Below, piece by piece: positions 12,971 to 34,248 of a stretch of DNA of 64,000 nucleotides. The position numbers and the translations under genes were made by a program. Positions within the stretch are counted from its first letter, which is position 1. Each line of letters starts with the position of its first letter. Source of the DNA: Rhizorhapis suberifaciens (lineage in GTDB: Bacteria; Pseudomonadota; Alphaproteobacteria; Sphingomonadales; Sphingomonadaceae); contig NZ_JACHOV010000009.1 of NCBI RefSeq assembly GCF_014200045.1, positions 62,001 through 126,000 of the forward strand, read 5' to 3'. Under the pieces are notes generated by a model. That model was given only the letters and a program-made list of their open reading frames with translations. It did not search any database and was not told the DNA's origin.

Positions 12971-12985
12971 CAAATGGAGTAACCC

Positions 12986-13357: not shown

Positions 13358-13387
13358 TGCAAAGTGCGAAAAGCTAGGGGATAATCA

Positions 13388-13837
13388 ATGTCCAACCAAC
13401 TCATCACCTTCCAGATTGGCGAACAGTTTTTGGGCGTCGACATCATGGCCATTCGCGAGATTCGGGCATGGTCGCCCAGCACGCTCCTACCGCACGTTCC
13501 GGACTATGTGCGCGGCGTCATCAACCTGCGCGGAAATGTCCTGCCGGTCATCGATCTTGCAGCGCGCCTTGGCTGGGGCCTGACAGAGCCCACCGGCCGC
13601 CACGTCATTATCGTGGTTCGCATCGCCGAGCAACTTCATGGCCTAATTGTCGACGCCGTTAACGACATCGTTACCGTCAACGAGGATGCAATGCAGGCAC
13701 CGCCCAGCCTCAGCACCGACAGCGCGTCGGCATTCCTGAAGGGGCTGGTGGCTGTGGAGGACCGGATGGTGATGGTGTTGTCGCTCGATAATCTCGCGGC
13801 GGAAACGCGGCACATGATCACCGCCGAAGCCGCCTGA
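13388..13837 (+). CDS. cheW: chemotaxis coupling protein CheW
   Basis: Adaptor joining MCP tips to CheA P5. 149 residues forming one CheW domain. Recognisable parts are TFQIGEQFLGVDIMAIREIR at the N-terminus, the VPDYVRGVINLRGNVLPVID core (about 37-56) and a C-terminal beta subdomain. AGGGGA sits upstream of the ATG at 13388. It follows cheY by 30 bases within the operon. It is the only CheW in the window and serves both MCPs. Confidence 0.96.
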   Translation: MSNQLITFQIGEQFLGVDIMAIREIRAWSPSTLLPHVPDYVRGVINLRGNVLPVIDLAARLGWGLTEPTGRHVIIVVRIAEQLHGLIVDAVNDIVTVNEDAMQAPPSLSTDSASAFLKGLVAVEDRMVMVLSLDNLAAETRHMITAEAA

Positions 13838-13881
13838 TCGAAAATTGAATTGTTCGCGCCGAACGATAGGGGAAAGCTGAA

Positions 13882-15586: not shown

Positions 15587-15769
15587 GGAAATGTAATTGG
15601 TTGCATGGGGCGCTGACCAATTTCGCTTTTTATGCGAAGCGTCGGGGGGGCCTGGCACTTCTCACAAGCTGGATTGAGTGGAGGGATCGAAGAGGTCGTA
15701 GACTGTCTTCGGCCGACCATTACTGACAGGCTGTGTGCCGTGTTCAGGGATAGTCGCCCGTTCCTACCG

Positions 15770-15797
15770 CAGTTCGAGCTTGTCGCTTCGCGAACTG
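15770..15797 (+). promoter_or_regulatory. hairpin next to the adhesin ribosome-binding site
   Basis: CAGTTCG (15770-15776) pairs perfectly with CGAACTG (15791-15797), with further AGC/GCT pairing inside. The right arm ends directly before the ribosome site AGGGGTGGG and the ATG at 15810. It could influence translation of the adhesin; no riboswitch family is recognised. Confidence 0.35.
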
Positions 15798-15809
15798 AGG
15801 GGTGGGAAA

Positions 15810-18800
15810 ATGGACATTGATCGCGATAATGGCCGTACGGCTGATGATCGGTTGTCGCCGCAATATGCTGCGACCGCTGAAGTGCAAGCGCTAGCGGCCG
15901 CCCAGGCTGGCCAGTTGCCGCCGCCGGCAAACGCGCAGGCCGTGTCCGCTCTTGCGGGGCCTGTAGCACTGCCGGAGGGGGTGAGCCTTGACCAGATCAG
16001 GGTTTCCGGACGCGATCTTATTGTCACTTTGCCCGATGGCACGCAGATGGTGATACTCGATGGTGCGATATTCGTGCCTCAGCTCGTCATCGACGGCGTT
16101 CAAATCCCTCCCGCCAACATCGCTGCACTGCTGATCGGGAACGAACCGCAGCCGGCGGCAGGATCCCCCCAAAGTTCGGGTGGCAACTTCGTGGCTGCCG
16201 AGGGCGACATCGGCGATCCCTTCAATCTTGGCGACTTGCTTCCCCCAACCGAACTTTCATTTCCGCCCTTCGAGCAGCAGGAGATTTTTCCTGCGGCGCC
16301 CGAGGATGAGGACGACGATCAGCCAGTCGACATCATAACCATTCCTGGGCCTGGTGAGCCTGGCACCGTAGTGGACGAAGCTGGTCTTGGCATTGACGAT
16401 CGCGACGGCGAAACGCCTGGGTCCAATGAGCCTGCGAATGTGGAAACAACACAAGGCGTCATGACCTACACGGCCCCTGACGGCCCAGCGACGGTCAGCA
16501 TCAATAACGTCGTTGTTACCCAGGTTGGGCAGACCATCCAGGGCCAGCACGGCATCTTGACCATCACCTCCATCGCGGACGGGCAGATCGGTTACAGCTA
16601 TGCGGTGACCGATAACGGCTCGGGCGACAATGTCACCGACAGCTTTGCCGTGACCGTGACCGATGTCGACGGTGACACGGATAGCGGGACGCTGACCATC
16701 ACGATCGTTGATGACGTGCCGCAAGCGCTGAACGACATCGACAGCGTGACCGAAGATGGTCCGCTGGTTGCAGACGGGAATGTCTTCACCGGCTCTGGAG
16801 GCGAAGACGCTAACGGAAGTGACGGGGTCGCTGATACCCCCGGCGCAGACGGCGCAACGGTCACTGCCATATCCTTCGGGCAAACCGGCGGCACGATCGG
16901 TTCGCCTGTTCCAGGCGCTTATGGCACTCTGACGCTCAACACTGACGGTAGCTATGTTTACACGCTGAATGCGGAAAATGGGGTAGTCCAGGGTCTGGAC
17001 TCGACTGAAAGCCTGACGGAGCAGTTCAGCTATACGATTACCGACGGCGATGGTGATATGTCCAGCGCGACGCTGACGATCACGATTGCAGGATCGGACG
17101 ACGGCGTCAGGATCGGTGGTCTTGACGGCCAAGGTGCAGAGGAAATTCTGTTCGAAGCCAATCTTGGCGATGGTTCGTCGCCTGATGCGGCGGCGTTGAC
17201 GCAAACCGGCACTTTTACGCTGAATGCTGTTGATGGCGTTTCGACCATAAGCATTAATGGTCAGACAATCTTTACCGGGGACACTTTTACTGCTGGCGCG
17301 CCCATCAGCAACGCCTATGGATCGCTCACCATTACCGGCTTCACGCCCGTGATGGGCTCCGACGGCGATGTGATCGGCGGCACTGTCAGCTACAGCTATG
17401 TGCTGAACGACAATATGTTGCTCCACACTGGCGGCAATGGCGGAAGCCTGACCCAAAGCTATACGGTCGTTGTGACCGACACCGACGGGTCGTCCGATAC
17501 GGCCAGCCTGGACGTGCAGGTGGTCGATGACGTGCCGACCGCCGCCGCAAATTCAAACACTGTGGACGAAGGCGCGACGCTTGAGGTGGACGCTGCCTCC
17601 GGCGTCCTGTCGAACGATACGGATGGCGCAGATGGTTTCGCCGGTGGGGACGGCGTCGTCGGCGTGCGCGCAGCGGGAGACGACACTACCAGCGAGATCG
17701 CTGGCAATGTTGGCTCGGCCATTGAGGGGCTTTATGGCACGCTGACGCTGCACGCCGACGGAAGCTACATCTATGTGTCGAACCCCAATGTCGTGCCGCC
17801 TGCCGGTGCGTCGGACGTGTTCGTCTATACCATTGAGGATGGCGACGGGGATCATTCTACTGCGACCTTGACCATCGACATTGCCGATGCAGGGCTTGCC
17901 GCCCGCACGGACAGCATCACTGTGGACGAAGCTGCGCTCGATAGCGTTGGCAGCAATTCCGGCAGCGATGGCGAGACTGCAACCGGCACCCTGACTGATA
18001 ATGTCAGCGGCGGCGCCGGGCCGTTTACCTTTGCCTTGACTGGGAATGGCGCGGGCAGCTTTGGAACCCTGACGCTCAATCCAAATGGCAGCTACAGCTA
18101 TACGCTGACCAGCCCTGTTGACGGGATCACCGCCGATGATGGCGCTTTGCCGCTCAACGGTGCCGAGAGCTTCGAATATGAAGTGACGGACGCCAACGGT
18201 AACACCACGACCAGCACGATCACGATCAATATCGTTGATGACGTACCCACAGCTTTTGCCGAACAGAGCCAAAGCGTTGCCGAAGACGCCGATGCAGCGA
18301 TCGGCGGCAATGTGCTCGACAATGACGTGAGGGGCGCGGATGGGGCCAGCCTGACGTCGGTGACGATCGATGGCACCACCACCAATGTGGCGGCCATCGG
18401 GACGACTCCGGTCACCACTTCCCTAGGAACCTACACCTTCACGGCCAACGGGAACTGGACCTTCGCTCCTGTTTCCAACCAGGCCAATGCAGCCGGGATC
18501 GACGCTTCCTTCAGCTACACCATCACCGATGGGGACGGGGATACGTCCTCGGCGCAGCAGCCGATCACGGTGCTCGACGGCGCTGAGCCGCAAGTGGGCA
18601 AGCCGGTCACCTTGACGCTTGACGATCAGAATCTCAGCGACGGTTCGACGCCCGCAGGAGCGGACAGCGCGACGGGAACGGTGACGTTCCTGCCAGGTTC
18701 GGACGCTATTGCGTCAATTGCTTTTGCGGCTGATGTAAGCAGCCTTGGCGGGAACCTGGATTGGACGCGAGTCTCCGACACGCAGATCGTCGGCAAGGAT

Positions 18801-21800
18801 GGCGGAACGATCGTCGTCACGCTCGATCTGGTCCGCGTCGGCGACACCGGCCAGGTGACCGCGACGCTGAACAATAATTACGATTCCCACCCGGGCATCA
18901 ATGCCGACGACCTGCAAACGCTCGGTTCGGTTGGTGTTGTAGCGACCGACACCGACGGCGATACCGCAACGGGTGCCGTCAATGTCGAAGTGTCGGATGA
19001 TCTGCCTGTCGTTACGGCGTCCCAACCGGGTGAGGACGCGATGACCGTTGATGAAACGGACCTCGGCAGCAACGACACGGCCGATTTCGGATCACTGTTT
19101 GCCATCGACTATAATGCCGATGGCCCAGCTGCGGCGAACCCGGTGGTTTATACCCTTGGCGTTGTGTCTGCGGGAGTGAATTCCGGTCTGGTCGATAGCG
19201 CTACGGGTTCAGATGTTCTGCTGCGTCTCACCGCGGGAGGTGTCGTCGAAGGCTATGTAGCGACCCAGCCAAGCCTCGTGGTGTTCACGGTTTCCGTCGA
19301 TGGCGCAGGCATTGTGACCCTGGATCAGCAGCGCGCCATCTTCCATTCGCCCGATAGCGGCGCGGATCAGCCCGCGTTTTTGACGGCGGACAACATCCTT
19401 ACATTGACAGCGACGGTCGAAGACGCTGACGGGGATACGGACAGCGCGACGATTTCCATCGGCAACGCACTGCGTTTCGAAGATGATGGTCCTTCCATCG
19501 ATGCTTCGGTCGTGGATGCTGACACGGTGCTGCTGACAACGCAGGACGTTCAGACCATTGGTGGTTTGAGCGACACGGCTGTATCCACCGCGAACTTTAG
19601 CGGCGCTTTCGGCCTCGTAGCTTCCGACCATGGCGCGGACGGCGCTGGGTCGACGGCATGGAACTACTCGCTGAACCTGACCGGCGTGCTTGCAGCGGGC
19701 CTTTCCAGCAATGGCGCGGCGATCAATCTGTTTGTGAATGGCGGCGTCGTGTTTGGTTCCACGGCGGCAACGCTCGGTGATGTAGATCCTGCAAACACGA
19801 TCTTCACCCTTGGTGTGGATAGCGGCACCGGCGTCGTTACCCTGACGCAGTTCGCCGAAATCGATCACTTGCCCAATGGCGATACCGCCGCGCCCTATGA
19901 CGATCAGTTCGCAACGCTGGCATCGGGCCTGGTGCAGCTCGTCGGCATCGCGACGATCACCGACAAGGACGGCGATACGGCGTCGGAGACCGTGGCCCTC
20001 GATCTGGGCGGTAACGTCCAGTTCGCGGACGATGGTCCTTCCATCAGCGCCGCAGGCGCGATCCCGACCCTAACCGTCGATGAAAGCGCGCTCTCAGTCG
20101 ATGCGAACGCCAGCTTCGTCAATGTCTTCGAATCTGACTTCGGGGCCGATGGTGCAGGCAAGATCGTCTACACCCTTGGCATCAATGCCGGTGCGACCGG
20201 ATTGGTAGATAGCCTTACCGGCCAGGCAGTCGTGCTGAGCCTGGAAGGCGAGCAGGTCATTGGCCGCGCAGGAGTGAATGGAGAAATCGTGTTCGCCCTG
20301 ACCGAGGATGGGGCCGGCGGTGTCTATCTGGATCAGAAGCGTGCCGTTGCGCATGACATCGATGGCTCTGCGTCCGCAGCGCATGATGATCCCAAGTCGC
20401 TTCTGGCGGCGAACCTCATCACGTTGACGGCAACCATCACGGACGGCGATGGCGACCAGGCATCGGCAACGATCGACCTGGGCGACAAGTTGACGTTCAA
20501 GGATGACGGTCCTTCGGCATCATCCAATGCAGTCGTTCAACTCGATGACGATGTATTGGCGAACGGCAATGACGGCGGCACGGGCGATGACCCGGATGCT
20601 GCGAACACCAGCGGTACGCTAGGCCATGGGTTTGGCGCGGATGGCGGATCGATAGCTTTCCTGACGTCGGGAGCGCCTTCGGGCTTCAGCTACGAATTGT
20701 CGGGCTCCAACCTGTTGGTGAAGCAGGGCGGGACGACGGTGTTGACCGTGACTCTCAATGCCGCGACCGGCGACTATGTCGTCACGCAAAATGCCCCGAT
20801 TCTGCATGATTCAGCGCAGAACGAGAATAACCAGACATTCGTCCTTAACTATCAGGTCACCGATGGCGATGGCGACACGGCCGCCGGAACGCTGAGCATC
20901 AATGTTGATGACGATATCCCTATCGCAACGAACGATCTGGCGTTCGTTGTCGAAGGCGGGCCGCTTTCGACCGGCAATGTCCTCGACAATGACCAGCCCG
21001 GAGCGGACGGGCCGCTGGTCGTGTCGAGCGTGAGCGGGGGAAGCCTTGGTGCGCCGATCGTCGGCAGTTACGGAACGCTGACGCTCAACGCTGATGGCAG
21101 CTACAAATACACGCCAAACGCCTCGGTGCCTACCAACTCGGTCGACAACTTCACCTATCTGGTGGTCGACAAGGACGGCGACACCAAGCCTGCATTGCTG
21201 AGTTTCGTCTTCAAGGGTGACGCAAATACCCCCAATGGGGGCAACGTGTCCGTGACGGTCGACGACGAAGGCCTCAGCGGCGGCAACAGCGGCGGCACGG
21301 GGGATTATACCGGCGTTCCCAATGAAGCAGTCGTCTCGGGCAATCTCGGCTTTTCCTACGGCGGGGACGGCGCGGCGGGCAGCGGGGCATTCGCTTTCGC
21401 CAATGGCAGCGTGACAGTCGGCACAGAAACGGTCAATTATGTCTGGAACGCGGGCACGAACACGCTGACCGCAACAGGTCCGCGCGGCATATTGTTCACC
21501 GTCACCGTGAACCCTGCCAATGGTGACTACACCGTGACGCTGGTCGACAATGTCCTGCACACGGTGGGCGGCAATGAAAACGACGCGGGGCCAATCGCAC
21601 TGAATTATGCGCTGTTGGACAGCGATGGTTCGCCGGCCAATGGCGTGCTCAACATCAGCTTCGATGACGATACGCCTAACGCTTACAATATTGCTCCAGA
21701 GGTGGCGAGCGGCGTCAACACCGGCACCGATTACACCGACGCCGGCAATCTCCTCCATTTGCCCAGCATTGGCGCGGATGGTCTCGGTACCTTGACCTTC

Positions 21801-23954
21801 AATGTCACGAACGGCACTCAGGCGATGGGCTTGGATGGGAAGGCTCTGACCTTTGAGGGGCAGAACATCTATTATACGGTGAATTCCGACGATCCGAGCA
21901 TTTTGGAAGCGCGTACCAGCGCGACGCCAGGGGCAGGGACGCTCATTTTCAAGATTGATCTTGATCAGCCCAGCGGCACCTATGCCTTTTCGCAATATGA
22001 ACAGATATCGATCCTCTCGACGCAGAACATTACCAGCCTGTCCTCCGTTGGGGGCGGCAATGTCACAGCCAAGGCGATCGACGTTCCCAGCTCCCCCTAT
22101 GACCTGGTTCTAAGCACCCAAGCAGGAAACACTGTAAACACCAACTCTACTCAAATCGGTGTCGGCAGCGGCCAGAGCATGGACTCTGGCGAACATATTC
22201 GCATCGATTTTGTCAAAGACTCATTCGTGACGGGCAGCGGTGGCAATGCCGAATTGCATTTCGGCGAATATTACACCGCGAACAGCTATCGGCAGGACGT
22301 GAGTGGCCTTTCGGGTCCGCAGCGTGCCGATTTCGTAGTGCGGGCGGTAACCGTTAGTGAGGCTTCACCCAGCACGACTACGGAAGCCGATGGCGACAAG
22401 GTCTTTTATGGTGACGGCAACGACTCTTTCCTGAGTTCCGCTGTCACCAGTATTGAGATCTACAATGCGGCAGGAACGCTGGTTGCTCCAGCAAATTACA
22501 GCGGGCTGGGAATTTCCGTGACCGCTGTGGCGAATGGCTGGCAGATACTGAACCTTCCTAATAACTATGATTTCAAGATCATATCCTCGACGCCCTTCAA
22601 CGCCGTTCAGGTCGAAGCGCTGGCAGGAACAGACACGTTCAAGCTGGGCTTCATCAGCATCGAGGCTTTTGTGGTCGGCGGCACGAGTTTCAGCGTTCCC
22701 ATCAGCTTGACCGACGCTGACGGCGATACTGTGTCCAATAGCATCGCAGTCAATTTGAGCGCTCCCGTCGCTCCCGTTGCTATCGATCTTGACCATGACG
22801 GCGTGGAATATCTCGCTCTCTCGGCCGGGGTTACTCACGACTATGGCTCGGGCGAGGTCAACACCGCCTGGGTTGCACCTGACGACGGGTTGTTGGCTCA
22901 CGCAATCGGTGAGGCCTATGACGTGGTCTTCACCGATGACGCGGCGGGGGCCACCACTGACCTCGATGGCATCCGCCTTGCTTATGACAGCAATAATGAC
23001 GGTTTCCTGACCGCGGATGACGCTGAATTCTCCAGCTTTGGAGTCTGGCAGGACGCCAACAGCAACGGTGTAGTCGATGCGGGCGAATTTCATTCGCTGA
23101 CAGACCTTGGCATCACCAGCGTGGGTCTTGTCTCTGATGGCCAGAGCAATATGGCGGCCAATGGCGATGTCCTGGTGCACGGTGAGGCGACATACACAAT
23201 CAATGGTGAGACCGGCGCTGTCGCCGACGTGGCGTTTGCCACGACCAGCACGCCGACCGCCACTCAACTCGACGAAAGGACGCTCCTTAACACCGGACTA
23301 AATCAGGCCCTGGTCGCGGCCAGCCTGATCGCAACCGTCGAACAAGCCGCAGCCGACAGTTCCGACACGACCCCGAGCGATGCGGTCGAGCAGGACTCGA
23401 CGGTGGCGGCGCCTGTGGTCGAGACGAGCGCGCCGACGGTCACATCCGACGAATCAGTGCCGGAGAGCAGCCTTTTGGACGATCCCGCCAGTGATCATTC
23501 CGTCAGCACGCCGGCCGCCGAAACACATCAGGCCCAGTCTGAAGGGGACGAGAGCAGCCTCAGCTCGCTGCAAGACACGTCGAGCGTTGAGGACAGTTCC
23601 GCGCCGGTTCAGGACGATCATGCGGTGACGGCCGATGCTCCGCCGCCGCCAATGCCGGTGGATCTGACGCCTATGATGATGGCTGCAATGCAAGTGGCCG
23701 AGGGCGAGCAGCCAGTGGATTTGCCAAAGGCTCTTCCCGCTATCCTTGCGGACGCTCTGGCGGGCGGAACGGCCGATGGTCCGGATATTGATGCTCTGCT
23801 GAACGCACTGCCGCAGGCAGAGCCGGTAGGCGGCGCCACTCCCGCTGCGCCCGCGACGGAAGCAATTCACGACTTCGCGTTGGCGGCTCCCGCCTTCCAC
23901 TTTGACCTTGCGATGATGAGCCATGACGCCGTCGCCGCCACCACGCATGCATGA
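15810..23954 (+). CDS. giant LapA-like VCBS-repeat adhesin secreted by a type I system
   Basis: 2714 residues from the ATG at 15810, which follows a GAGGGGTGGG ribosome site; the frame is open upstream to 15735 but that part lacks support. Residues 1-150 resemble a LapA-type N-terminal retention module (VSGRDLIVTLPDGTQMVILD, 65-84). It is followed by PAAG at 115-118, close to the T-A-A-G LapG target at 107-110 in Pseudomonas LapA. From about residue 280 to 2300 there are some 13-14 VCBS/cadherin-like repeats, each marked by a D-x-D-G-D...DD-x-P signature and expected to bind Ca2+. Around 2390-2425 are two EF-hand-like loops (DSNNDGFLTADD, DANSNGVVDAGE). The tail is a Ser/Asp/Pro-rich low-complexity stretch. 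No tandem RTX nonapeptides were seen, only one GDGND-like copy. Predicted to be surface-held through an outer-membrane TolC-like pore and to mediate attachment. Confidence 0.9.
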   Translation: MDIDRDNGRTADDRLSPQYAATAEVQALAAAQAGQLPPPANAQAVSALAGPVALPEGVSLDQIRVSGRDLIVTLPDGTQMVILDGAIFVPQLVIDGVQIPPANIAALLIGNEPQPAAGSPQSSGGNFVAAEGDIGDPFNLGDLLPPTELSFPPFEQQEIFPAAPEDEDDDQPVDIITIPGPGEPGTVVDEAGLGIDDRDGETPGSNEPANVETTQGVMTYTAPDGPATVSINNVVVTQVGQTIQGQHGILTITSIADGQIGYSYAVTDNGSGDNVTDSFAVTVTDVDGDTDSGTLTITIVDDVPQALNDIDSVTEDGPLVADGNVFTGSGGEDANGSDGVADTPGADGATVTAISFGQTGGTIGSPVPGAYGTLTLNTDGSYVYTLNAENGVVQGLDSTESLTEQFSYTITDGDGDMSSATLTITIAGSDDGVRIGGLDGQGAEEILFEANLGDGSSPDAAALTQTGTFTLNAVDGVSTISINGQTIFTGDTFTAGAPISNAYGSLTITGFTPVMGSDGDVIGGTVSYSYVLNDNMLLHTGGNGGSLTQSYTVVVTDTDGSSDTASLDVQVVDDVPTAAANSNTVDEGATLEVDAASGVLSNDTDGADGFAGGDGVVGVRAAGDDTTSEIAGNVGSAIEGLYGTLTLHADGSYIYVSNPNVVPPAGASDVFVYTIEDGDGDHSTATLTIDIADAGLAARTDSITVDEAALDSVGSNSGSDGETATGTLTDNVSGGAGPFTFALTGNGAGSFGTLTLNPNGSYSYTLTSPVDGITADDGALPLNGAESFEYEVTDANGNTTTSTITINIVDDVPTAFAEQSQSVAEDADAAIGGNVLDNDVRGADGASLTSVTIDGTTTNVAAIGTTPVTTSLGTYTFTANGNWTFAPVSNQANAAGIDASFSYTITDGDGDTSSAQQPITVLDGAEPQVGKPVTLTLDDQNLSDGSTPAGADSATGTVTFLPGSDAIASIAFAADVSSLGGNLDWTRVSDTQIVGKDGGTIVVTLDLVRVGDTGQVTATLNNNYDSHPGINADDLQTLGSVGVVATDTDGDTATGAVNVEVSDDLPVVTASQPGEDAMTVDETDLGSNDTADFGSLFAIDYNADGPAAANPVVYTLGVVSAGVNSGLVDSATGSDVLLRLTAGGVVEGYVATQPSLVVFTVSVDGAGIVTLDQQRAIFHSPDSGADQPAFLTADNILTLTATVEDADGDTDSATISIGNALRFEDDGPSIDASVVDADTVLLTTQDVQTIGGLSDTAVSTANFSGAFGLVASDHGADGAGSTAWNYSLNLTGVLAAGLSSNGAAINLFVNGGVVFGSTAATLGDVDPANTIFTLGVDSGTGVVTLTQFAEIDHLPNGDTAAPYDDQFATLASGLVQLVGIATITDKDGDTASETVALDLGGNVQFADDGPSISAAGAIPTLTVDESALSVDANASFVNVFESDFGADGAGKIVYTLGINAGATGLVDSLTGQAVVLSLEGEQVIGRAGVNGEIVFALTEDGAGGVYLDQKRAVAHDIDGSASAAHDDPKSLLAANLITLTATITDGDGDQASATIDLGDKLTFKDDGPSASSNAVVQLDDDVLANGNDGGTGDDPDAANTSGTLGHGFGADGGSIAFLTSGAPSGFSYELSGSNLLVKQGGTTVLTVTLNAATGDYVVTQNAPILHDSAQNENNQTFVLNYQVTDGDGDTAAGTLSINVDDDIPIATNDLAFVVEGGPLSTGNVLDNDQPGADGPLVVSSVSGGSLGAPIVGSYGTLTLNADGSYKYTPNASVPTNSVDNFTYLVVDKDGDTKPALLSFVFKGDANTPNGGNVSVTVDDEGLSGGNSGGTGDYTGVPNEAVVSGNLGFSYGGDGAAGSGAFAFANGSVTVGTETVNYVWNAGTNTLTATGPRGILFTVTVNPANGDYTVTLVDNVLHTVGGNENDAGPIALNYALLDSDGSPANGVLNISFDDDTPNAYNIAPEVASGVNTGTDYTDAGNLLHLPSIGADGLGTLTFNVTNGTQAMGLDGKALTFEGQNIYYTVNSDDPSILEARTSATPGAGTLIFKIDLDQPSGTYAFSQYEQISILSTQNITSLSSVGGGNVTAKAIDVPSSPYDLVLSTQAGNTVNTNSTQIGVGSGQSMDSGEHIRIDFVKDSFVTGSGGNAELHFGEYYTANSYRQDVSGLSGPQRADFVVRAVTVSEASPSTTTEADGDKVFYGDGNDSFLSSAVTSIEIYNAAGTLVAPANYSGLGISVTAVANGWQILNLPNNYDFKIISSTPFNAVQVEALAGTDTFKLGFISIEAFVVGGTSFSVPISLTDADGDTVSNSIAVNLSAPVAPVAIDLDHDGVEYLALSAGVTHDYGSGEVNTAWVAPDDGLLAHAIGEAYDVVFTDDAAGATTDLDGIRLAYDSNNDGFLTADDAEFSSFGVWQDANSNGVVDAGEFHSLTDLGITSVGLVSDGQSNMAANGDVLVHGEATYTINGETGAVADVAFATTSTPTATQLDERTLLNTGLNQALVAASLIATVEQAAADSSDTTPSDAVEQDSTVAAPVVETSAPTVTSDESVPESSLLDDPASDHSVSTPAAETHQAQSEGDESSLSSLQDTSSVEDSSAPVQDDHAVTADAPPPPMPVDLTPMMMAAMQVAEGEQPVDLPKALPAILADALAGGTADGPDIDALLNALPQAEPVGGATPAAPATEAIHDFALAAPAFHFDLAMMSHDAVAATTHA

Positions 23955-23993: not shown

Positions 23994-24725
23994 ATGAGGA
24001 TGAAGCTGCTAAGCATAGCAGCCATGACAGTGACGCCACTGTTCATGGCTGCACCCGCCGCTCATGCGGTTACACGGTCGCCGCTCCTTGACCTGGGCAA
24101 GGCCGAACTTAAGGGCGAGGTGCAGACTCGTTATGACGCGGCGGTAACGGCTAGCAAGACTGACGACGTGCGTCGTTCGGACGATGCCAGATTCACTTGG
24201 GCGTCGGAGGCAAAGGCACAGTGCGGCATCGCGCTGGGGTTCCTCAAATCGGGCACAGTGGATGAAGACAGCGTCAATCGCTGCGATGCTTCCTCTGCGC
24301 GCCTTACCGCTCCGCCGGCTGCTCCTTCCATGCCTGCCGCGCCTACGGCGTCGGCCGATTGCCCGCCGGATATGAAGGCCCTGGTCTTCTTTGACTGGAA
24401 CCTCGACACCCCGCTTCCCGAAGCCGGAGCTACGATCAGCCAGCTCGCGGGCCTGCGGACATCATGTGGATGGACCAGTTTCAAGGTCATCGGCCACACC
24501 GATAAGTCGGGCGCCGACATTTACAACAACGGCCTTTCGATGCGTCGCGCAGCCAATGTGGCGGCCATCATGGGTCAGGCGGGCATTGCCTCTGGCGATG
24601 TTACCACTGAAGCGCTCGGCGAAAGCCAGTCCTTGGTGGAAACCGCTGACGGGGTACGCGAAGCCCAAAACCGCCGCGTGGAAATCGTCGCCGTCACAGG
24701 CGGTCAGGTAATGGGAGGGCAATAA
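23994..24725 (+). CDS. OmpA-family peptidoglycan-associated protein of the adhesin operon
   Basis: 243 residues. A signal peptide (about 1-25, ending AAHA) is followed by a short region of unknown fold and an OmpA C-terminal domain from about 125 to 240. Visible are VFFDWNLDTPLPEA, the FKVIGHTDKSGAD peptidoglycan-binding core and the RRVEIVAV end. It has no obvious beta-barrel, so it is probably periplasmic or loosely anchored, gripping the cell wall near the secretion machine. GGGGGAAAATA precedes the ATG. It sits 39 bases after the adhesin and 1 base before the outer-membrane channel gene, so it is part of the operon. Confidence 0.88.
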   Translation: MRMKLLSIAAMTVTPLFMAAPAAHAVTRSPLLDLGKAELKGEVQTRYDAAVTASKTDDVRRSDDARFTWASEAKAQCGIALGFLKSGTVDEDSVNRCDASSARLTAPPAAPSMPAAPTASADCPPDMKALVFFDWNLDTPLPEAGATISQLAGLRTSCGWTSFKVIGHTDKSGADIYNNGLSMRRAANVAAIMGQAGIASGDVTTEALGESQSLVETADGVREAQNRRVEIVAVTGGQVMGGQ

Positions 24726-24726
24726 G

Positions 24727-26124
24727 ATGACTGTCAGCAAAAAGCACAAATGGCTCATGGCGGTCCCTGGCGCTCTGATTTTGAGCGCCACGGTCGCCCA
24801 TGCCGAGCCGGTGGATCTGAAGACCGCCGTACAGGCCGCCGTCGATTCCCATCCGGAGATCAGCCAGGCCATCCAGAACAAGGAAGCCATTGAGTTCGAG
24901 CGCGATCAGGCGCAGGGGCTATTCCTGCCTCGCATCTCGGTCGAAGGTTCGGCCGGTGTCCGTCGACTGGAAAACCGCACCCGCCGCGCGCTTAACCTTG
25001 AGGACGAGTCGCTCTATCCGTTGGAAGCCAGCGTTTTTGGCGAACAGCTGCTCTTCGACTCCGGTTCACGCAGCGCAGAACTCAAGCGCCAGGCAGCGCG
25101 CACCGATGGAGCCGCGCTGAGGGTCGAGGAACGGTCGGAGTTCATCGCGCTCAATGTCACCCGTCAGTATCTCGACTATATGCTTCAACAGCGGATCGTT
25201 GCGGCGGCAGAAGATAATGTCACCTTCCACCAGTTGCTGACCAATGATCTGAGCGAAGGCGTCAAGTCTGGGTCGATCAGCATTGCAGATCAGCAGCAGG
25301 CTGAGGAACGGCTCCAGGCCGCCAAGATTCGCCGCACGGAAGCGCAGGAAGACCTGAACAACGCTGCGATTTCATTCATGACGTTGACGGGTATTTCGAT
25401 CAGCGAAGTCGCGGTGCCCGAATCGCCGCGCGCTGCGCTGCCGCCGACGGTTGCCGATGCAGTCGCTGCCGCACGTGATCGCAATCCCAAGGTGCGCGAG
25501 GCTCAGGCGGACGTGGATGCCGCCTATCAGGTGGTGAACAAGGCAGAGGCCGAACTTGGTCCCCGTGTCTCGCTTGAAGGACGAGGCCGCGTCGGTGAGG
25601 ATCTGGACGGTTTTCGCGGCACCACCAATGACCTGCAGGCTCGTGTTGTCCTTACCTGGGACCTCTATAATGGCGGAATCAACCGTGCCAAGGTCCAGGA
25701 AATGACACGTCGCGCCAGTGAGGCCCGGTTCCGCCTGCACCAATTGACTCGTGAAGCCGAAGAAGAAGTAAGACAGGCCTGGAACCGCTGGCAGATCGAG
25801 GGCGTACGCCTGACGGATCTTGAACAGCAGAGCAAGGTGTCGGACGACCTGCTGCTTTCCTATCGGGAGCAGTTCAACGTTGGCCGCCGCTCGCTGCTCG
25901 ATGTTCTGGACTCCCAGAATACGCGCTTCAATGCACAGGTGCGGACAGAAACGTCGCGTCTCGCGCAACTTTTTGCCGAATATCAGATACTCGCCGCAAC
26001 GGATAATTTGATGGCAACATTGGGCGTCACGCCGCCAACGGGCGTCAAGACCTATGCTCGCGAACGGTTCGACGTTCCTGATACGGAACCTGCTGAACTG
26101 CATCGTCGGCGTTATCCGCGCTAA
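24727..26124 (+). CDS. TolC-family outer-membrane channel (LapE-like)
   Basis: Outer-membrane factor of the type I secretion system. 465 residues with a signal peptide (about 1-27, ending AHA) and two TolC/OEP repeats. Typical segments are the VDLKTAVQAAVDSHPEISQA start, the coiled-coil helices with Ala/Gln/Glu heptads, and the second repeat ending in LTWDLYNGGINRAKVQEM and SLLDVLDSQNTRFNAQVR. In Lap systems this pore also holds the adhesin N-terminus at the surface. It follows the OmpA gene with 1 base between and precedes the ABC exporter by 24 bases. Confidence 0.93.
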   Translation: MTVSKKHKWLMAVPGALILSATVAHAEPVDLKTAVQAAVDSHPEISQAIQNKEAIEFERDQAQGLFLPRISVEGSAGVRRLENRTRRALNLEDESLYPLEASVFGEQLLFDSGSRSAELKRQAARTDGAALRVEERSEFIALNVTRQYLDYMLQQRIVAAAEDNVTFHQLLTNDLSEGVKSGSISIADQQQAEERLQAAKIRRTEAQEDLNNAAISFMTLTGISISEVAVPESPRAALPPTVADAVAAARDRNPKVREAQADVDAAYQVVNKAEAELGPRVSLEGRGRVGEDLDGFRGTTNDLQARVVLTWDLYNGGINRAKVQEMTRRASEARFRLHQLTREAEEEVRQAWNRWQIEGVRLTDLEQQSKVSDDLLLSYREQFNVGRRSLLDVLDSQNTRFNAQVRTETSRLAQLFAEYQILAATDNLMATLGVTPPTGVKTYARERFDVPDTEPAELHRRRYPR

Positions 26125-26148: not shown

Positions 26149-28293
26149 ATGAAGTTGGGGGAGTGGGCCGATCAGGAACATCGCGGCAATGACGATGTTC
26201 TGGACTGCCTTGCGCATATCGCGACGCTGTATGATCGGCCTTCTTCGCCCACCATCATCCAGGCGGGATTGTCTCTGACGGAAGACGGAAGACTGCCCTT
26301 CCACCAGGCAGAGGCGGCGCTGGATCAGCTTGGGCTAGGCTGCGATCCTGTCGTTCGTCCTCTTGCCAAGTGGCGCAAAAAGCATGTTCCTGCCGTCCTG
26401 AAGTTGACGAATGGGCGGGCTGCGGTGTTGCTCGATATCGAGGGCGAGGACGTCAAGCTCTTCGTCCCCGGCCGCGATGAAACGCTGTGGGCGAGCCGGG
26501 AATCCCTGACCGGGATATTCGACGGTCACGCAGTGGCGGTTTGGCCCGACCATCGAAAGGAACGCGCTACCGAGCTTGCCTGGGACCAGCAGGTAAAGAA
26601 GCACTGGTTCTGGCAGGAGGTATGGCGCGTCCGCAAATCATTTGGGTTCGTCGTCGCGGCTGCCACAATCATCAACCTGCTGGCCTTTGCTTTGCCGCTG
26701 TTCACGATGAATGTCTATGACCGGATTATTCCCAACAAGGCGGTCTCCAGCCTTTGGGTATTGGCCATCGGCGTCATGCTCGCTTTTTCGATGGATTTCG
26801 CGCTCCGCATTGCGCGGGCAAGACTGATCGACGAGACGGGCCGCAAGCTTGATGCGCGCTTGTCGCAAAAGCTATTCGAAAAGCTGCTGAACATCCCGCT
26901 GGCCTCGCGCAAGGGGAGCACCGGCGCGTTTGTGCGGCGCGTGTCCGAATTTGAGCAGGTGCGGGATTTCTTTGCTTCAACGACGGTGGTGCTGGTCGTC
27001 GACCTTGCCTTCCTGTTCGTCTTCCTGGCGCTGATCACGCTGATAGCCGGCTGGCTCGCCGTGGTCCCGCTTCTGGCCATGGCTATCATGGCGACGGCGG
27101 GCTTTTCCCTTCAAAAAGCCATGGGCAAAGCGGCTCTGGAGGCGCAAGCCGACGCCGGGCTTCAGCACACCGCGCTGGTAGAGGCAGTCAGCGGCCTTGA
27201 AACCCTGAAAGCCTGTCGCGCCGAAGGACGGATGTTGGGACGCTGGCAGCGCTATTCCGAAATGAGCGCGCAAACGCAGGAAAAGCTGCGTCGCCTGACG
27301 GCTATCAGCGTCAACCTTGCCTCGCTCTGCCAGCAGACGACAAGCATCAGCCTGATTATCGGCGGCTTTTACCTCTTCAATGCCGGCATCATTTCCATGG
27401 GCGCCATCATTGCAGTCGTCATGCTCGCTGGTCGCTCGCTAGCTCCCGTGGGTCAATTCGCCTTCCTTTTCACGCGCGCGCGTCAGGCCTTTACGACGCT
27501 TGAAGGCCTGCAGGGCATGATGGAAATGGATGATGAGCGTCAGGCTGGCGCCCGCAGCATTCTTCCCGAAATACGCAATGGCGACATTGCCATGGAGCAT
27601 GCCTGCTTCAGCTATCCCGAAAGCTCTCTGCCGGCGCTGAACGACGTTTCGCTTCATATCAATCATGGGGAGCGGATCGGTATCATCGGTCGCGTGGCCT
27701 CGGGCAAGTCGACCTTGGGCCGAATGCTCTGCGGCCTTTATCAGCCGACCGAGGGCGCGATCCGCATTGATGGGCTCGACAGCCGTCAATATCATGCCCA
27801 TGAAGTCCGCTCGGCCTTTCGCTTCGTGGGCCAGGATGCGGTGCTGTTTAGCGGCACGATCCGCGAAAACCTGATGCTGGGCGCTCAGGAAGCCGACGAG
27901 CGTCGGTTGGTGGAGGCGCTCACCAAATCGGGCGCGAACTACTTCTTCGCTGGGGACGCGGGCGGCTTTGACATGCAGGTCGGCGAGCGTGGCTCCAGGC
28001 TGTCTGGCGGTCAGCGCAGCTTTCTCGTCCTCGCTCGCGCATTGGTCGAACCCTCTCGCCTGCTATTCCTGGACGAGCCGACCGGCGCGATGGACAGCGG
28101 CACGGAGCAGATGTTTATCGATCACCTCAAAAAAGCACTGACGCCACAACAGACCCTTGTCGTCTCGACCCATCGCAATGCGATGCTCTCGCTGGTCGAC
28201 CGCCTGATCGTGATCGACAAGGGCCGCATCGTAGCCGATGGCCCCAAGGACAAGATCCTGTCGTCCTTGGCCGGCAAGGCACTGGGAGGCTGA
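26149..28293 (+). CDS. type I secretion ABC exporter, LapB-like
   Basis: Inner-membrane ATPase/permease that exports the adhesin. 714 residues. Residues 1-140 form a C39-peptidase-like domain with no catalytic Cys, as in RTX/LapA exporters that recognise but do not cleave their cargo. The transmembrane domain spans about 155-430. The nucleotide-binding domain has Walker A GRVASGKST (about 513-521), the signature LSGGQRS (about 618-624), Walker B LLFLDEPTGAMD and an H-loop STHRN. It is followed 2 bases later by a cell-wall hydrolase gene rather than directly by hlyD. Confidence 0.95.
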   Translation: MKLGEWADQEHRGNDDVLDCLAHIATLYDRPSSPTIIQAGLSLTEDGRLPFHQAEAALDQLGLGCDPVVRPLAKWRKKHVPAVLKLTNGRAAVLLDIEGEDVKLFVPGRDETLWASRESLTGIFDGHAVAVWPDHRKERATELAWDQQVKKHWFWQEVWRVRKSFGFVVAAATIINLLAFALPLFTMNVYDRIIPNKAVSSLWVLAIGVMLAFSMDFALRIARARLIDETGRKLDARLSQKLFEKLLNIPLASRKGSTGAFVRRVSEFEQVRDFFASTTVVLVVDLAFLFVFLALITLIAGWLAVVPLLAMAIMATAGFSLQKAMGKAALEAQADAGLQHTALVEAVSGLETLKACRAEGRMLGRWQRYSEMSAQTQEKLRRLTAISVNLASLCQQTTSISLIIGGFYLFNAGIISMGAIIAVVMLAGRSLAPVGQFAFLFTRARQAFTTLEGLQGMMEMDDERQAGARSILPEIRNGDIAMEHACFSYPESSLPALNDVSLHINHGERIGIIGRVASGKSTLGRMLCGLYQPTEGAIRIDGLDSRQYHAHEVRSAFRFVGQDAVLFSGTIRENLMLGAQEADERRLVEALTKSGANYFFAGDAGGFDMQVGERGSRLSGGQRSFLVLARALVEPSRLLFLDEPTGAMDSGTEQMFIDHLKKALTPQQTLVVSTHRNAMLSLVDRLIVIDKGRIVADGPKDKILSSLAGKALGG

Positions 28294-28295
28294 CA

Positions 28296-29276
28296 ATGGT
28301 GGTCATCCGTGACAAACTGGCCAGTGCACCCATAGCACTATTGGGACTATTGTTGGTTGCAGCTCTGTTTCTGGCCGTTTTACGGGTCGGCGGCATCGGA
28401 TCAATCGCAAAACCCCACGCGGTCGCAGCGGATGCCGAAGCAACCATGCCCGACATCGGCGAACGCAAGGCCCTCATCGCATTGACGCATGAACCCTCAA
28501 CCGAGGTTGTGAGCAAGGGCGAAGCTGCGGTTGAGGGCAATGAGAAGCTTCCTTTTTCCGAAGCAAAGATTTTGGCCGCCGCGCCCTTTTCAGTGGCTCG
28601 CGCTTCGGAAGCGGAGCGGCAGAAGGCTGAACTTTGTATGACCCAGGCGGTCTATTATGAAGCCGGTTTTGAACCGCTTGCTGGTAAGCGGGCGGTTGCG
28701 CAAACCGTCTTGAATCGCCTCCGTCATCCCGCCTTCCCGCATAGCGTCTGTGGCGTCGTTTATGAGGGCGCCCTTCGACCTGTTTGTCAGTTCAGCTTCA
28801 CCTGCGATGGCGCGTTGGGGCGCAGGCCCGCACCGGCCGCATGGGCTGAAGCGCGCCGTGTCGCTCATGATGCGCTAAATGGCTATGTCGAGAAATCGGT
28901 GGGCCTCGCGACCCATTATCACGCCAATTATGTGCTGCCCCGCTGGGCCCCTGAACTTGCGAAGATCGCCAAGATCGGCGCCCATATATTCTACCGCTGG
29001 CCAGGTGGGTGGGGAATGCCTCGCGCTTTTGGACAATCCTATAGCGGGATCGAGACCGTGCCATTGTTCAATGCCGCGGTACAGGCGGAACCGGTAATCG
29101 ACTATCCGGCCGTCGCGGCCCTGCCGGAGCGCCGGGCACAGGACGACGTTGGCGGCCGCATCGATATAAGCAAGGGGTGGAAACCCAATATTCCTGCGCC
29201 GTCGCACACGTCCAGTGCGCTTACGAAGGTGTATGCGGCACAATCGGTCACATCCGCAGAGGTAATTGCGCCATGA
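28296..29276 (+). CDS. SleB-type cell-wall hydrolase inside the type I secretion operon
   Basis: 326 residues. One N-terminal membrane anchor (about 12-32) leads to a periplasmic linker and a SleB/Hydrolase_2 domain (about 108-225) with the family motif AVYYEAGFEP, placing the likely catalytic Glu at 122. RPVCQFSFTCDG is also typical of this fold. Relatives are lytic transglycosylase-like enzymes that cut peptidoglycan. It lies between the ABC exporter (2-base gap) and the HlyD gene (4-base ATGA overlap), so it is translationally linked to the export machine. A role in opening the wall for the trans-envelope channel is inferred. Confidence 0.88.
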   Translation: MVVIRDKLASAPIALLGLLLVAALFLAVLRVGGIGSIAKPHAVAADAEATMPDIGERKALIALTHEPSTEVVSKGEAAVEGNEKLPFSEAKILAAAPFSVARASEAERQKAELCMTQAVYYEAGFEPLAGKRAVAQTVLNRLRHPAFPHSVCGVVYEGALRPVCQFSFTCDGALGRRPAPAAWAEARRVAHDALNGYVEKSVGLATHYHANYVLPRWAPELAKIAKIGAHIFYRWPGGWGMPRAFGQSYSGIETVPLFNAAVQAEPVIDYPAVAALPERRAQDDVGGRIDISKGWKPNIPAPSHTSSALTKVYAAQSVTSAEVIAP

Positions 29277-30571
29277 TGCTCACCCCGGCCCTGTCTCTCA
29301 ATCGTCTGCGGTCTCTGGACGGAGCGCAAAGCGTCATTGTTGCCTCTTTTGCCGCTGTCATTCTCTTCATATTGTGGGCGTCGCTGGCCCGGGTCGACGA
29401 AGTGACGCGGGGGCAGGGGCGGGTGATACCGTCCAGCAAGATGCAGATGGTGCAGAGCGCCGAGCCCGCCACGATCAAGGAAATTCTGGTCCGGTCAGGC
29501 CAGAATGTACGCAAGGGCCAATTGTTGGTGCGCCTCGATGATACTCAGTCCGCATCCGAACTGGGGCAGATCGCCGCCGAGAACAATTTGCTTTCCGCCC
29601 GCGCTGATCGGCTGTCCCGTGAAGGCTCCGGGAAGAGCACCGGCTGTTCGCCTTCTTCAAACGGTGCGCGGTCGGAAGCTTGCGCCGAGGAGGCCCAGCT
29701 TCAGGCTGTTCGGCAGTCCGCGCTGCAAAGCCGCCTCACCGGATTGCAGGCGGGCGTAGAGCAACGGCGACGCGAGCTAGGCGAAGCGCAGGCAACGGTC
29801 AGCAGCTTGGTCAGCAGCGTTGCTCTTGCCCAGCGTCAGGTCGACATGATCGAGCCGCTTGCCCGCAAGAATATCGTGCCCCAGACCGAACTGCTCTCTG
29901 CGCGTCGAGAATTGGTCGACCTGCAAGGACGCCTCGCCGCCGCGCGGGAGGGGGTCTCCCGTACCAGCGCCGGTGTTCGCGAAGCTATGGCCCAAGCTGC
30001 CGAGGCAAATTTCCAATTCCGCCAGGACGCATTGAACGAACGCAGCCAGCTTCAGACGAAGATCGCCGTCAACAGCCAATCTCTGCGGGGGGCGGCGGGG
30101 CGGGTGCAGCGTGCCGAGCTGAGGTCTCCCGTCGATGGGGTGGTCAATGATGTTCAGGTAACGACGGTGGGCGGCTTCGTGCAGGCGGGACAGAAGATCA
30201 TGCAGGTCGTGCCGCTTGGCGACAAGCTGCTGGTCGAAGCACGGGTGAAGCCGAGCGACATCGCCTTCATAAAGGTGAACGATCGCGCAAATGTAAAAGT
30301 CACCGCATATGATTTCTCGACCTATGGTGGGCTTACGGGCCGCGTGGTGCAGATTTCAGCAGACAGCATTTATGATGAGGTCGCCAAGGAAGCTTATTTT
30401 TCTGTGGTCGTGGAAACCGATCGGGCGTATCTGCTTGCGGGAGAACGGCGTCTCCCGATCACACCCGGCATGATCTGTGATGTCGAGATCATCACCGGAC
30501 GCAAATCCATCTTGTCCTATCTGCTGAAACCCGTGATGAAAGCGCGAGCCGAGGCCTTGGTGGAGCGGTGA
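29273..30571 (+). CDS. HlyD-family periplasmic adaptor of the type I system (LapC-like)
   Basis: 432 residues from the ATG at 29273, which overlaps the stop of the hydrolase (ATGA); the longer open frame from 29177 overlaps that gene and is unlikely to be coding. One transmembrane helix (about 20-40), a lipoyl-type half-motif, long coiled coils (about 90-290, rich in Gln, Arg, Ala) and a beta-barrel end containing LRSPVDGVVNDVQVTTVGG (about 283-301). It joins the ABC exporter to the TolC-like pore. It is the last gene of the operon; lapG is convergent, 19 bases away, with no visible terminator between. Confidence 0.93.
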   Translation: MMLTPALSLNRLRSLDGAQSVIVASFAAVILFILWASLARVDEVTRGQGRVIPSSKMQMVQSAEPATIKEILVRSGQNVRKGQLLVRLDDTQSASELGQIAAENNLLSARADRLSREGSGKSTGCSPSSNGARSEACAEEAQLQAVRQSALQSRLTGLQAGVEQRRRELGEAQATVSSLVSSVALAQRQVDMIEPLARKNIVPQTELLSARRELVDLQGRLAAAREGVSRTSAGVREAMAQAAEANFQFRQDALNERSQLQTKIAVNSQSLRGAAGRVQRAELRSPVDGVVNDVQVTTVGGFVQAGQKIMQVVPLGDKLLVEARVKPSDIAFIKVNDRANVKVTAYDFSTYGGLTGRVVQISADSIYDEVAKEAYFSVVVETDRAYLLAGERRLPITPGMICDVEIITGRKSILSYLLKPVMKARAEALVER

Positions 30572-30590: not shown

Positions 30591-31565
30591 TTACTGGCCG
30601 AGGGAAGCGTAGCGCAAGGTGGCGGCCGACGGTGCGGTCCGGTATCCGTGCGTCCAGCTGCCCGAAGCATTGAAGGTCAGCACGGGCCGATAATCCTTCA
30701 CATCATCCGATGACAGGACCTTATCGGTCTCATTGTCGAGCACCAGCAGGTCGCCATCCACGGCAACCGCAAGGACCGCATGATCCGCACGCCTCACCAG
30801 GTCGCGGGCAATGACCAGGAACATGGCGCTCGCTGGTATGCCCAGGGCGCGGAGCATCTGCATCTTCGCTATGGCAAAGTCTTCACAGTCGCCACGCCCG
30901 CGCGCCAATGATTGCGCGGCGGGCGCCCAGTGATCGGCTACGCCATATTGACGCGTGTCTTCCACATAGGAAATCCGCGCGTTGACCCAGTTGTTGATCG
31001 CCTGGATCTGAACACCGCGCGATAGATGACGGCTTTGCGCTATCACTTGGGACCAAGGTCCAGCGCTGCCCGACAGCGTTCCGCCGGAGGCCTGCCGCCA
31101 CCTTTGGTCCAGCGCGGTGCGCGATACCGGCAGCGCTACGGTTCCGAAGACATCCGGTTGTCCCGGGCGTATCTGGCTTTTAGCCGCAGGACCGCCTTCT
31201 TTCATGAAAATGGCAGGCCTCGGTTCCCTGTCGGCGCAGTCCGAACCTAGCTCGACCATAGGCGTTTTTCCGCCCATGGTGACGGTTGCAAAGCTTGCTG
31301 GCTGAAGCGCTGTTTCTGGTCTGCCCTGCTGAGCCCGAATTTGCTCGAGCCGGCTGACGCCACCCTGTAAAACGGCCTCGCTTTTGCTGGTGACTTTGGG
31401 AGCGGAGCTTTGTCCTCCGGCAGGCTGGATAGCGGCAAAAGGCGTGTCGCAGGATGCGGCGACCGCAGGGGAGGCGCCTGAACTGGCCAAGGCCACCAGC
31501 AGGAAGCCTGTTCGACGGGCTCCATGTAGCTGGCTGAAAAGCTGGAAGAACCTTTTTTGCTCCAT
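30591..31565 (-). CDS. lapG: LapG-like periplasmic cysteine protease (bacterial transglutaminase-like, BTLCP)
   Basis: Predicted to cut the N-terminus of the adjacent adhesin and so release it from the surface. 324 residues from the ATG at 31565; a TTG at 31595 would add ten residues but lacks a ribosome site. A signal peptide (about 1-37, ending AVAA) is followed by a Pro/Gln-rich region and the BTLCP domain (about 140-300). The catalytic triad is visible: Cys227 in GRGDCEDFAIAK, His262 in RADHAVLAV and Asp277 in LLVLDNETD. Asp226 and Glu228, flanking the Cys, correspond to Ca2+ ligands in studied LapG proteins. It is convergent with the secretion operon and divergent from the kinase at 31908. 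Confidence 0.87.
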   Translation of the reverse strand: MEQKRFFQLFSQLHGARRTGFLLVALASSGASPAVAASCDTPFAAIQPAGGQSSAPKVTSKSEAVLQGGVSRLEQIRAQQGRPETALQPASFATVTMGGKTPMVELGSDCADREPRPAIFMKEGGPAAKSQIRPGQPDVFGTVALPVSRTALDQRWRQASGGTLSGSAGPWSQVIAQSRHLSRGVQIQAINNWVNARISYVEDTRQYGVADHWAPAAQSLARGRGDCEDFAIAKMQMLRALGIPASAMFLVIARDLVRRADHAVLAVAVDGDLLVLDNETDKVLSSDDVKDYRPVLTFNASGSWTHGYRTAPSAATLRYASLGQ

Positions 31566-31907
31566 CAGCAAAGAATGTTCCTCAATTTCTAACAAAATGT
31601 GAAGCGCGAAATAGCTTTAATCGGTTCGTCTCTGAAATGGAACGGTATATCGATATTAGTAGATAAAAATAACATGGGTTATGGTTATCACAATATTACT
31701 TTATCTCGTCTTTTATATTTAACACAGATTAACCATAATATTTCATTTCATACATTGAAATCGAACATTTACTTAAAGTTTACAAAAATGGTTAAATCAA
31801 CTTGACGTTAACTGTATATTTTTCTTGAAAAAGCATAGGTTTGAGCGGCAGTTTTTGGTAAAGTCTCTATTCTCGAAGGAGCTGTATTCGAGTCGGGGGG
31901 AACGGAT
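31566..31907. promoter_or_regulatory. AT-rich divergent promoter region between lapG and the two-component genes
   Basis: 342 bases with a striking AT-rich core (about 31610-31860) against a GC-rich background. It must hold the promoters of lapG (minus) and the histidine kinase (plus). Several TTAA words occur, but none pair with 7-base spacing. A 68-codon frame inside looks non-coding. The composition would suit a nucleoid-protein silencer target; that is inference. Confidence 0.5.
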
Positions 31908-33620: not shown

Positions 33621-33621
33621 A

Positions 33622-34248
33622 ATGGCGAATCTTCTTATCGTTGATGATCATCCCCTGTTTTTGGACGGGTTGCAGCAGTTCCTGGAGACCAGCGGTCATC
33701 AGATCATGTGCTGCGCCCGATCCGTGCGCGACGCCTTGTACAGGCTGCAGACTGAAGCGCCCGACGTCCTGATCCTTGATCTTAGCATGAAGGACGGGGG
33801 CGGTTTGGCGATCCTGGCGGCCATTCGCGAGCAGGGGAATGACGTGCCCGTGATTTTCCTGACCGTCAGTATCAAGCCGGAACAAACGATCGAAGCGCTG
33901 CGTCTCGGCGTCAACGGCATCGTTTTGAAGGAAAGCGATCCGGATGAGTTGCTGACCTGCATCCGCTCGGTGCTCATGGGGGACAATCGTATCGATCCTG
34001 GCATCATGGAACAGGCCCTTCTGCATTCGGTGGTGGCCAAGAGCAAGGTTTCCTCTGAGTCAGTGTTGACTGAGCGCGAAAAGCAGATTGCCGCTCTTAT
34101 CCGCTCGGGCTTGCGCAACAAAATGATCGCTGAAAAATGCGGCTTGACCGAAGGGACGGTGAAGGTTCACCTGCACAGCATCTTTCAGAAGTTGGGCGTA
34201 AAGTCGCGGGCGGAGCTCATTGTCAGCACCATGGGTGAAGGCGCCTGA
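33622..34248 (+). CDS. NarL/FixJ-family response regulator
   Basis: 208 residues from the ATG at 33622, 1 base after the kinase stop; an in-frame ATG at 33601 overlapping the kinase is possible. The receiver domain has DDH (8-10) and phospho-acceptor Asp53 in LILDLSMKDGG. The C-terminal LuxR-type helix-turn-helix starts at LTEREKQIAALIRSG (about 150) with the recognition segment CGLTEGTVKVHLHSIFQKLG. It is a DNA-binding transcription factor, most simply paired with the adjacent kinase. Likely targets are the adhesin operon and lapG (inference). Confidence 0.92.
   Translation: MANLLIVDDHPLFLDGLQQFLETSGHQIMCCARSVRDALYRLQTEAPDVLILDLSMKDGGGLAILAAIREQGNDVPVIFLTVSIKPEQTIEALRLGVNGIVLKESDPDELLTCIRSVLMGDNRIDPGIMEQALLHSVVAKSKVSSESVLTEREKQIAALIRSGLRNKMIAEKCGLTEGTVKVHLHSIFQKLGVKSRAELIVSTMGEGA

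Follow-up and report, generated by a model that had tools for sequence, protein, structure and literature searches.

Members of the Sphingomonadaceae that carry one particular clade of type I secretion system (T1SS) exporter encode a predicted cell wall hydrolase within the secretion operon itself. The gene is of the SleB type. It lies between the genes for the ABC exporter and the HlyD-family periplasmic adaptor, and directly follows the ABC gene in 82 of the 83 exporter-bearing genomes found in the family. The operon copies belong to a single exporter clade, retain an intact putative catalytic residue, possess a private C-terminal tail and co-occur with a gene for a LapG-like protease. We give roughly an even chance to the reading that the product is a lytic transglycosylase dedicated to this one clade of retention-type T1SS and probably docked to the complex, where it would open the wall locally. 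T1SSs are usually described as three-part machines; if the reading is true, the operon SleB would be a fourth part in this subtype.

The operon was analysed in a window of Rhizorhapis suberifaciens DNA, that is, the whole stretch of 64,000 nucleotides (contig NZ_JACHOV010000009.1, positions 62,001 to 126,000); its components are listed in table 1. The ABC exporter scores 779.2 bits against TIGR03375 (cut-off 693.1), the HlyD adaptor 358.8 bits against TIGR01843 (cut-off 208.65) and the LapG-like protease 74.8 bits against PF06035 (cut-off 27). The TolC-family channel reaches 148.1 bits with PF02321 (OEP; cut-off 22) and falls just below the cut-off of the type_I_sec_TolC model TIGR01844 (215.7 versus 225.15 bits; E 1.1e-63). 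The adhesin matches NF045619 (189.1 bits, cut-off 180) and contains T1SS-143 repeats in the profile search; an alternative in-frame ATG lies near position 15810. At residue 141 of this open reading frame (ORF) is the sequence motif P-AAG, a candidate for the N-terminal dialanine cleavage site of a LapA-type retained adhesin. The initial annotation had placed a SleB-family enzyme between exporter and adaptor with a 2-base gap and a 4-base overlap. This arrangement is borne out: 2 bases separate the ABC and SleB genes, and the SleB stop overlaps the HlyD start by 4 bases (ATGA).

Table 1. Features of the T1SS operon and the adjoining protease gene (coordinates in the window).
Feature	Position	Strand	Basis or remark
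Giant adhesin, presumed exporter cargo; T1SS-143/VCBS repeats	15735..23954	+	longest ORF, start GTG
OmpA-family protein, peptidoglycan-binding family by Pfam	23994..24725	+	PF00691
TolC-family outer-membrane channel	24727..26124	+	PF02321
LssB-type T1SS ABC exporter	26149..28293	+	TIGR03375
SleB-type cell wall hydrolase, 326 aa	28296..29276	+	PF07486; helix ~13-31, catalytic domain ~70-250, tail ~279-302
Codon of putative catalytic Glu122	28659..28661	+	alignment
Operon-specific C-terminal motif, residues 279-302, R.A..D.GGR.D....W...IP.P	29130..29201	+	alignment + tail HMM
HlyD-family periplasmic adaptor	29273..30571	+	TIGR01843
LapG-like BTLCP protease, convergent with operon	30591..31595	-	PF06035

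The hydrolase assignment rests on a PF07486 (Hydrolase_2) match over residues 126-233 (E 7e-25; score 88 bits, cut-off 27). Two PDB entries match the protein in sequence, both of them Bacillus SleB (4f55 and 4fet), and its AlphaFold model aligns with these structures at E values of 3e-6 to 6e-6 and a TM by target of 0.79-0.83. Bacillus SleB is a spore cortex lytic transglycosylase that has its catalytic fold and a conserved Glu in common with the operon protein; in the alignment, E122 of the window SleB pairs with this Glu. The operon protein differs in that it has no spore context, possesses its own C-terminal tail and stays under the cut-off of the spore_SleB equivalog TIGR02869 (61.7 versus 236.5 bits). 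By its sequence, the window hydrolase is SleB-like without being an orthologue of spore SleB. E122 had been proposed as the key residue; it is invariant in all 45 operon rows that cover it, of 47 operon rows in all. The residues of the core, including E122 and four cysteines, are likewise invariant in operon and stand-alone SleBs alike, in the rows covering them.

The two ends of the protein bear on its location. A hydrophobic helix occupies residues 13-31 of the window SleB, and a TM-like N-terminal stretch is present in all 43 full-length operon SleBs tested. The initial annotation had read this helix as a membrane anchor. The helix stands; the segment may instead be a cleaved signal, since AxA, a possible signal-peptidase motif, follows the hydrophobic stretch in 19 of the 43 proteins. 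At the other end, residues ~279-302 are conserved in operon copies only. When half of the operon SleBs were used to train a tail HMM, it found 22 of 23 held-out operon copies at 1e-5, the single miss being cut by its contig, and none of the 34 stand-alone SleBs at this threshold; the best stand-alone value was 0.0023 (L080). With a stricter regular expression the tail was recovered in 40 of 47 operon SleBs and 0 of 34 stand-alone proteins. The AlphaFold model gives the tail a pLDDT of ~55-63, which is low confidence. Such a segment might fit a docking peptide; because of this low confidence, docking is a guess.

Stand-alone SleB genes are common in the family (117 of 119 genomes searched contain some SleB match), so position rather than presence is the question. 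A TIGR03375 search of the same 119 genomes at 1e-130 gave 69 exporter places, 19 of which have SleB directly downstream of the ABC gene. A wider ABC search recovered the exporter in 83 of 397 Sphingomonadaceae genomes and in 28 of 96 genera, with ABC identities of at least 48%. The 82 positive genomes comprise 63 of 64 newly scanned genomes together with 19 others (18 earlier loci and the window). Because the position recurs to this extent among genomes with the exporter, it is not due to chance, and a fortuitous or idiosyncratic insertion is ruled out. The suggestion that SleB might recur in the operons of other sphingomonads is thus upheld, and the possibility that its position is not conserved falls away. 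The sole exception is one genome (G535; locus L234, contig G535:C191), in which HlyD comes straight after ABC and no SleB match was found genome-wide at 1e-70. The locus retains TolC, segments of the adhesin, a fragment of OmpA and the end portion of a LapG-like gene, and offers a natural deletion for comparison.

A second collection of genomes was examined through its best 80 SleB loci, which divide into 46 operon loci and 34 in which SleB has neither ABC nor HlyD as a neighbour. The ABC gene is included on the contig in 43 of the 46; L080, one of the 34, stops at a contig edge. Genera with the operon include Sphingobium, Sphingopyxis, Sphingomonas, Novosphingobium, Croceicoccus, Erythrobacter, Altererythrobacter, Qipengyuania, Tsuneonella and Sphingomicrobium. 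Four loci of this collection (L054, L066, L076 and L080) are on the same contigs as G075, G042, G087 and G010 of the other; the two collections therefore overlap and their counts are not to be added. A 4-base overlap joins the ABC stop to the SleB start in 40 of 43 operons, and an overlap of the same length links the SleB stop with the HlyD start in 31 of 45; both counts are favoured by the choice of the start nearest to the preceding stop. These overlaps point to translational coupling. The hydrolase, earlier described as built into a T1SS operon, is indeed a conserved and apparently translationally coupled part of it. Larger ABC-HlyD gaps at L208, L212 and L213 reflect longer HlyD N-termini or intergenic sequence, and no hydrolase was seen in them.

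Other exporters of the same general type do not have this arrangement. Fifty exporter places among the matches listed have no adjacent SleB, and 40 of these served as controls, 30 of them over the TIGR03375 cut-off. In none of these 40 LssB-like systems, all from the same family, does SleB lie between ABC and HlyD. Their ABC proteins are 28-40% identical to that of the window, and HlyD follows ABC on the same strand in 38 and is divergent in two (L174, L191). Two controls have a more distant SleB, at L189 on the opposite strand just past HlyD and at L195 4 kb downstream. The window's own genome contains two other LssB-like systems, both below the family cut-off and both with HlyD straight after ABC. 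With the ABC as query, a class-wide search at 1e-130 found matches in 55 of 385 genomes, among them that of the window; outside the family, the top-scoring ABC shares 41% identity with the window's, and no identity is above 44%. In the 29 class-wide loci inspected, no SleB was found in the ABC-HlyD gap. Searched class-wide at 1e-40, the SleB alignment matched 45 of 385 genomes, and the best matches outside the family (G180 and G393; L238, L239) were set aside, as no T1SS gene surrounds SleB in the stretches examined.

The initial annotation had connected the hydrolase with a very large cargo and with an OmpA partner able to bind the wall. The first connection is not supported. The largest ORFs measure 1,008-3,185 aa in 17 SleB-bearing loci, where several are truncated because the locus stops, against 544-2,621 aa in the 40 SleB-free loci; the former set is larger on the whole and the size ranges overlap. 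Cargo size finds no support as the driver, since SleB-free systems adjoin ORFs, the presumed cargos, of up to 2,621 aa. In the window's genome itself, the presumed cargo ORFs next to the two SleB-free systems measure at least 1,608 and at least 1,727 aa. The two sets differ in the LapG-like gene. With HMMs built from the operon loci themselves, it was found in 42 of 46 SleB-bearing loci, the four misses lying on contigs that end shortly downstream, versus 0 of 40 SleB-free loci. The presence of SleB tracks the LapG-like protease gene and not cargo size. The OmpA gene, detected by the same approach, occurs in 31 of 46 SleB-bearing and 0 of 40 SleB-free loci. It is present in the window operon, as had been noted, and it is no fixed partner: no OmpA was found in nine operons in which the adhesin-TolC interval is present (L055, L064, L065, L066, L068, L069, L074, L086 and L089), and the idea of an obligate partner was dropped. 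Four of six operon adhesins with the N-terminus present, the window's included, have P-AAG at residues 107-141, versus one of 14 control ORFs with a similar dialanine motif (those passing a length filter among the 18 loci L164-L181).

The main rival explanation draws on these same associations. In this account SleB would serve the retained state of the adhesin, either by binding or trimming the wall around a parked TolC-adhesin complex or by aiding the LapG-like protease in adhesin turnover or release, and its loss would change retention or dispersal rather than export. The near-perfect co-occurrence with the protease gene, the motif in the adhesins and the frequency of OmpA all speak for it. 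The gene arrangement speaks against it: the coupling of SleB is with ABC and HlyD, whereas the protease is encoded on the other strand and is displaced in Sphingopyxis-type loci. Nor do LapG-linked exporters of other families have SleB nearby, as 7 of 20 class-wide LssB loci contain a LapG-like gene and SleB is found in 0 of these 20. Adhesin retention is accordingly rejected as a sufficient cause, and SleB is a family-specific addition rather than a requirement of the retention-type exporter. On balance a role in the retained or released state is unlikely.

Phylogenetic analysis bears on another explanation, that SleB is a passenger. A general wall enzyme would have been trapped in the operon once and kept there by vertical inheritance and co-transcription, acting in ordinary wall turnover with no role in secretion. 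In a quick ABC tree of 119 rows (117 differing), in which some long branches were flagged, a branch with 99% support parts 59 SleB-bearing rows from 60 SleB-free rows. Operon and stand-alone SleBs likewise cluster apart, with two label changes and none of 500 shuffles giving as low a number; the changes are L080, which ends with its contig, has no tail motif and falls inside the operon clade, and L090, which falls outside it. Over 40 loci, the distances between SleBs rise with those between the ABC proteins (r 0.91; Mantel test, 0 of 1000 permutations), as expected when genes are inherited together. This single-clade history is what a passenger would leave, and the catalytic core is common to stand-alone SleB genes. 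A passenger is also possible because the window's genome has two more SleB genes and G535 lives without one in the operon; in a further genome (G567), an operon-type copy is found away from T1SS genes. Yet SleB has been kept beside ABC across the 28 genera and down to an ABC identity of 48%, with one observed loss, and the tail motif sets the operon copies apart. Ordinary wall turnover alone hardly explains this retention, since each of the 19 SleB-bearing genomes of the 119-genome search contains one or more additional SleB matches. The passenger explanation is therefore rather improbable. Lastly, an exported antibacterial, wall-degrading T1SS effector can be dismissed as scarcely credible, given that a hydrophobic N-terminal segment, found in every operon SleB tested, is the wrong signal for a T1SS substrate, that the largest SleB-HlyD gap (54 bases, n=45) has no space for an immunity gene and that stand-alone genes have the same core; the one point in its favour is a published SleB-fold T6SS effector whose Glu is needed for toxicity (PMC11148199).

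The preferred reading, a hydrolase dedicated to secretion, suggests the following sequence of events. (i) Translational coupling of ABC, SleB and HlyD would cause SleB to be made in step with the exporter. (ii) The N-terminal segment would insert the protein, and the catalytic domain would then face the periplasm. (iii) The operon-specific tail would keep SleB near the complex. (iv) Local cutting of glycan strands would allow the HlyD-TolC conduit to span the wall. (v) In this subtype the conduit probably stays occupied by an adhesin that LapG can release. In this scheme enzymatic activity, a periplasmic topology, docking and a need for SleB in export are inferred. A fuller version is more tentative and falls somewhat short of an even chance: the operons would represent a distinct T1SS subtype in which a dedicated enzyme that opens peptidoglycan joins ABC, HlyD and TolC as a fourth envelope component; docked via its private tail, this enzyme would be required for assembling or maintaining an exporter that spans the wall while the adhesin is parked in its channel. 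The G535 locus argues against a dedicated role, as it keeps ABC, HlyD, TolC and adhesin segments without SleB. The two other SleB genes of the window's genome could act in trans. With an operon-locked hydrolase in so many genera, the question of how the conduit passes the wall becomes testable by a single gene deletion, and the tail motif is a concrete candidate docking site.

Dedicated lytic transglycosylases are familiar from other machines, namely IpgF/EtgA, VirB1 and FlgJ of T3SSs, T4SSs and flagella. These resemble the proposed function of the operon SleB in opening the wall for an envelope-spanning machine, but belong to other enzyme families and other machines. By analogy, the nearest working parallel is EssH of the Staphylococcus aureus T7SSb, which the work on it describes as a dedicated hydrolase with a Sec signal that is required for secretion and whose non-catalytic domain is needed for function (PMC13059805). 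The likeness is that of a works-like model, in which the genes of a secretion system include a wall hydrolase of its own. EssH differs in being a CHAP amidase/peptidase of a Gram-positive bacterium and an unrelated machine, with a role shown experimentally, whereas that of the operon SleB is predicted from sequence. A second comparison comes from FtsEX, a relative of MacB that activates wall hydrolases, according to the wall-related passages of a T1SS and efflux review (PMC8277102). FtsEX is like the proposed arrangement in that it belongs to the ABC family and brings in wall hydrolases or activates them; it differs in being of the MacB type and not thought to transport, whereas here the ABC protein is a T1SS exporter that would do the recruiting. 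The same passages report an interaction of outer-membrane channels with the peptidoglycan layer, and describe no wall hydrolase for T1SSs; passage of the conduit through peptidoglycan seems rarely discussed for these systems. Among the matches listed in open-licence literature, judged by title and the start of the abstract, none concerned a hydrolase gene inside a T1SS operon or a T1SS-linked SleB. The LapA/LapEBC/LapG system of Pseudomonas fluorescens resembles the window operon in its giant adhesin, T1SS and LapG-type protease, and the excerpted description of it names lapA, lapEBC, lapG and lapD and no hydrolase (PMC3032545). LapD is part of that system; a search of the window's genome with PF16448 (LapD N-domain) gave no match, and control genomes gave none either.

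Several loci depart from these patterns. The L090 locus (8737-14931), from a Caulobacteraceae MAG, has SleB, HlyD, an RHH-domain gene, a LapG-like gene and an adhesin, with ABC absent from the contig sequence examined. Its HlyD is 63% identical to the window's and its SleB is on a long branch; transfer, rearrangement or mis-binning are possible origins of the arrangement. In an alphaproteobacterial MAG (L129:7758-9903), a LapG-like transglutaminase-fold gene lies directly upstream of a stand-alone SleB. The isolated copy in G567 (L235:6419-7462, contig G567:C1) is a second operon-type SleB, 42% identical, with no T1SS gene in a stretch of 16 kb; it is flanked by an FAA-hydrolase gene and a DUF1499 gene, and an EipA envelope-integrity gene lies ~2 kb away. 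In the window, genes for a histidine kinase and a LuxR-type regulator (31908-34248) adjoin the LapG-like gene. The kinase was rejected as a member of the unit, with 0 kinase matches at 1e-10 in the 46 operon loci. A regulator weakly similar to the window's (26-29%) lies between HlyD and the LapG-like gene in five loci (L055, L060, L064, L065 and L066).
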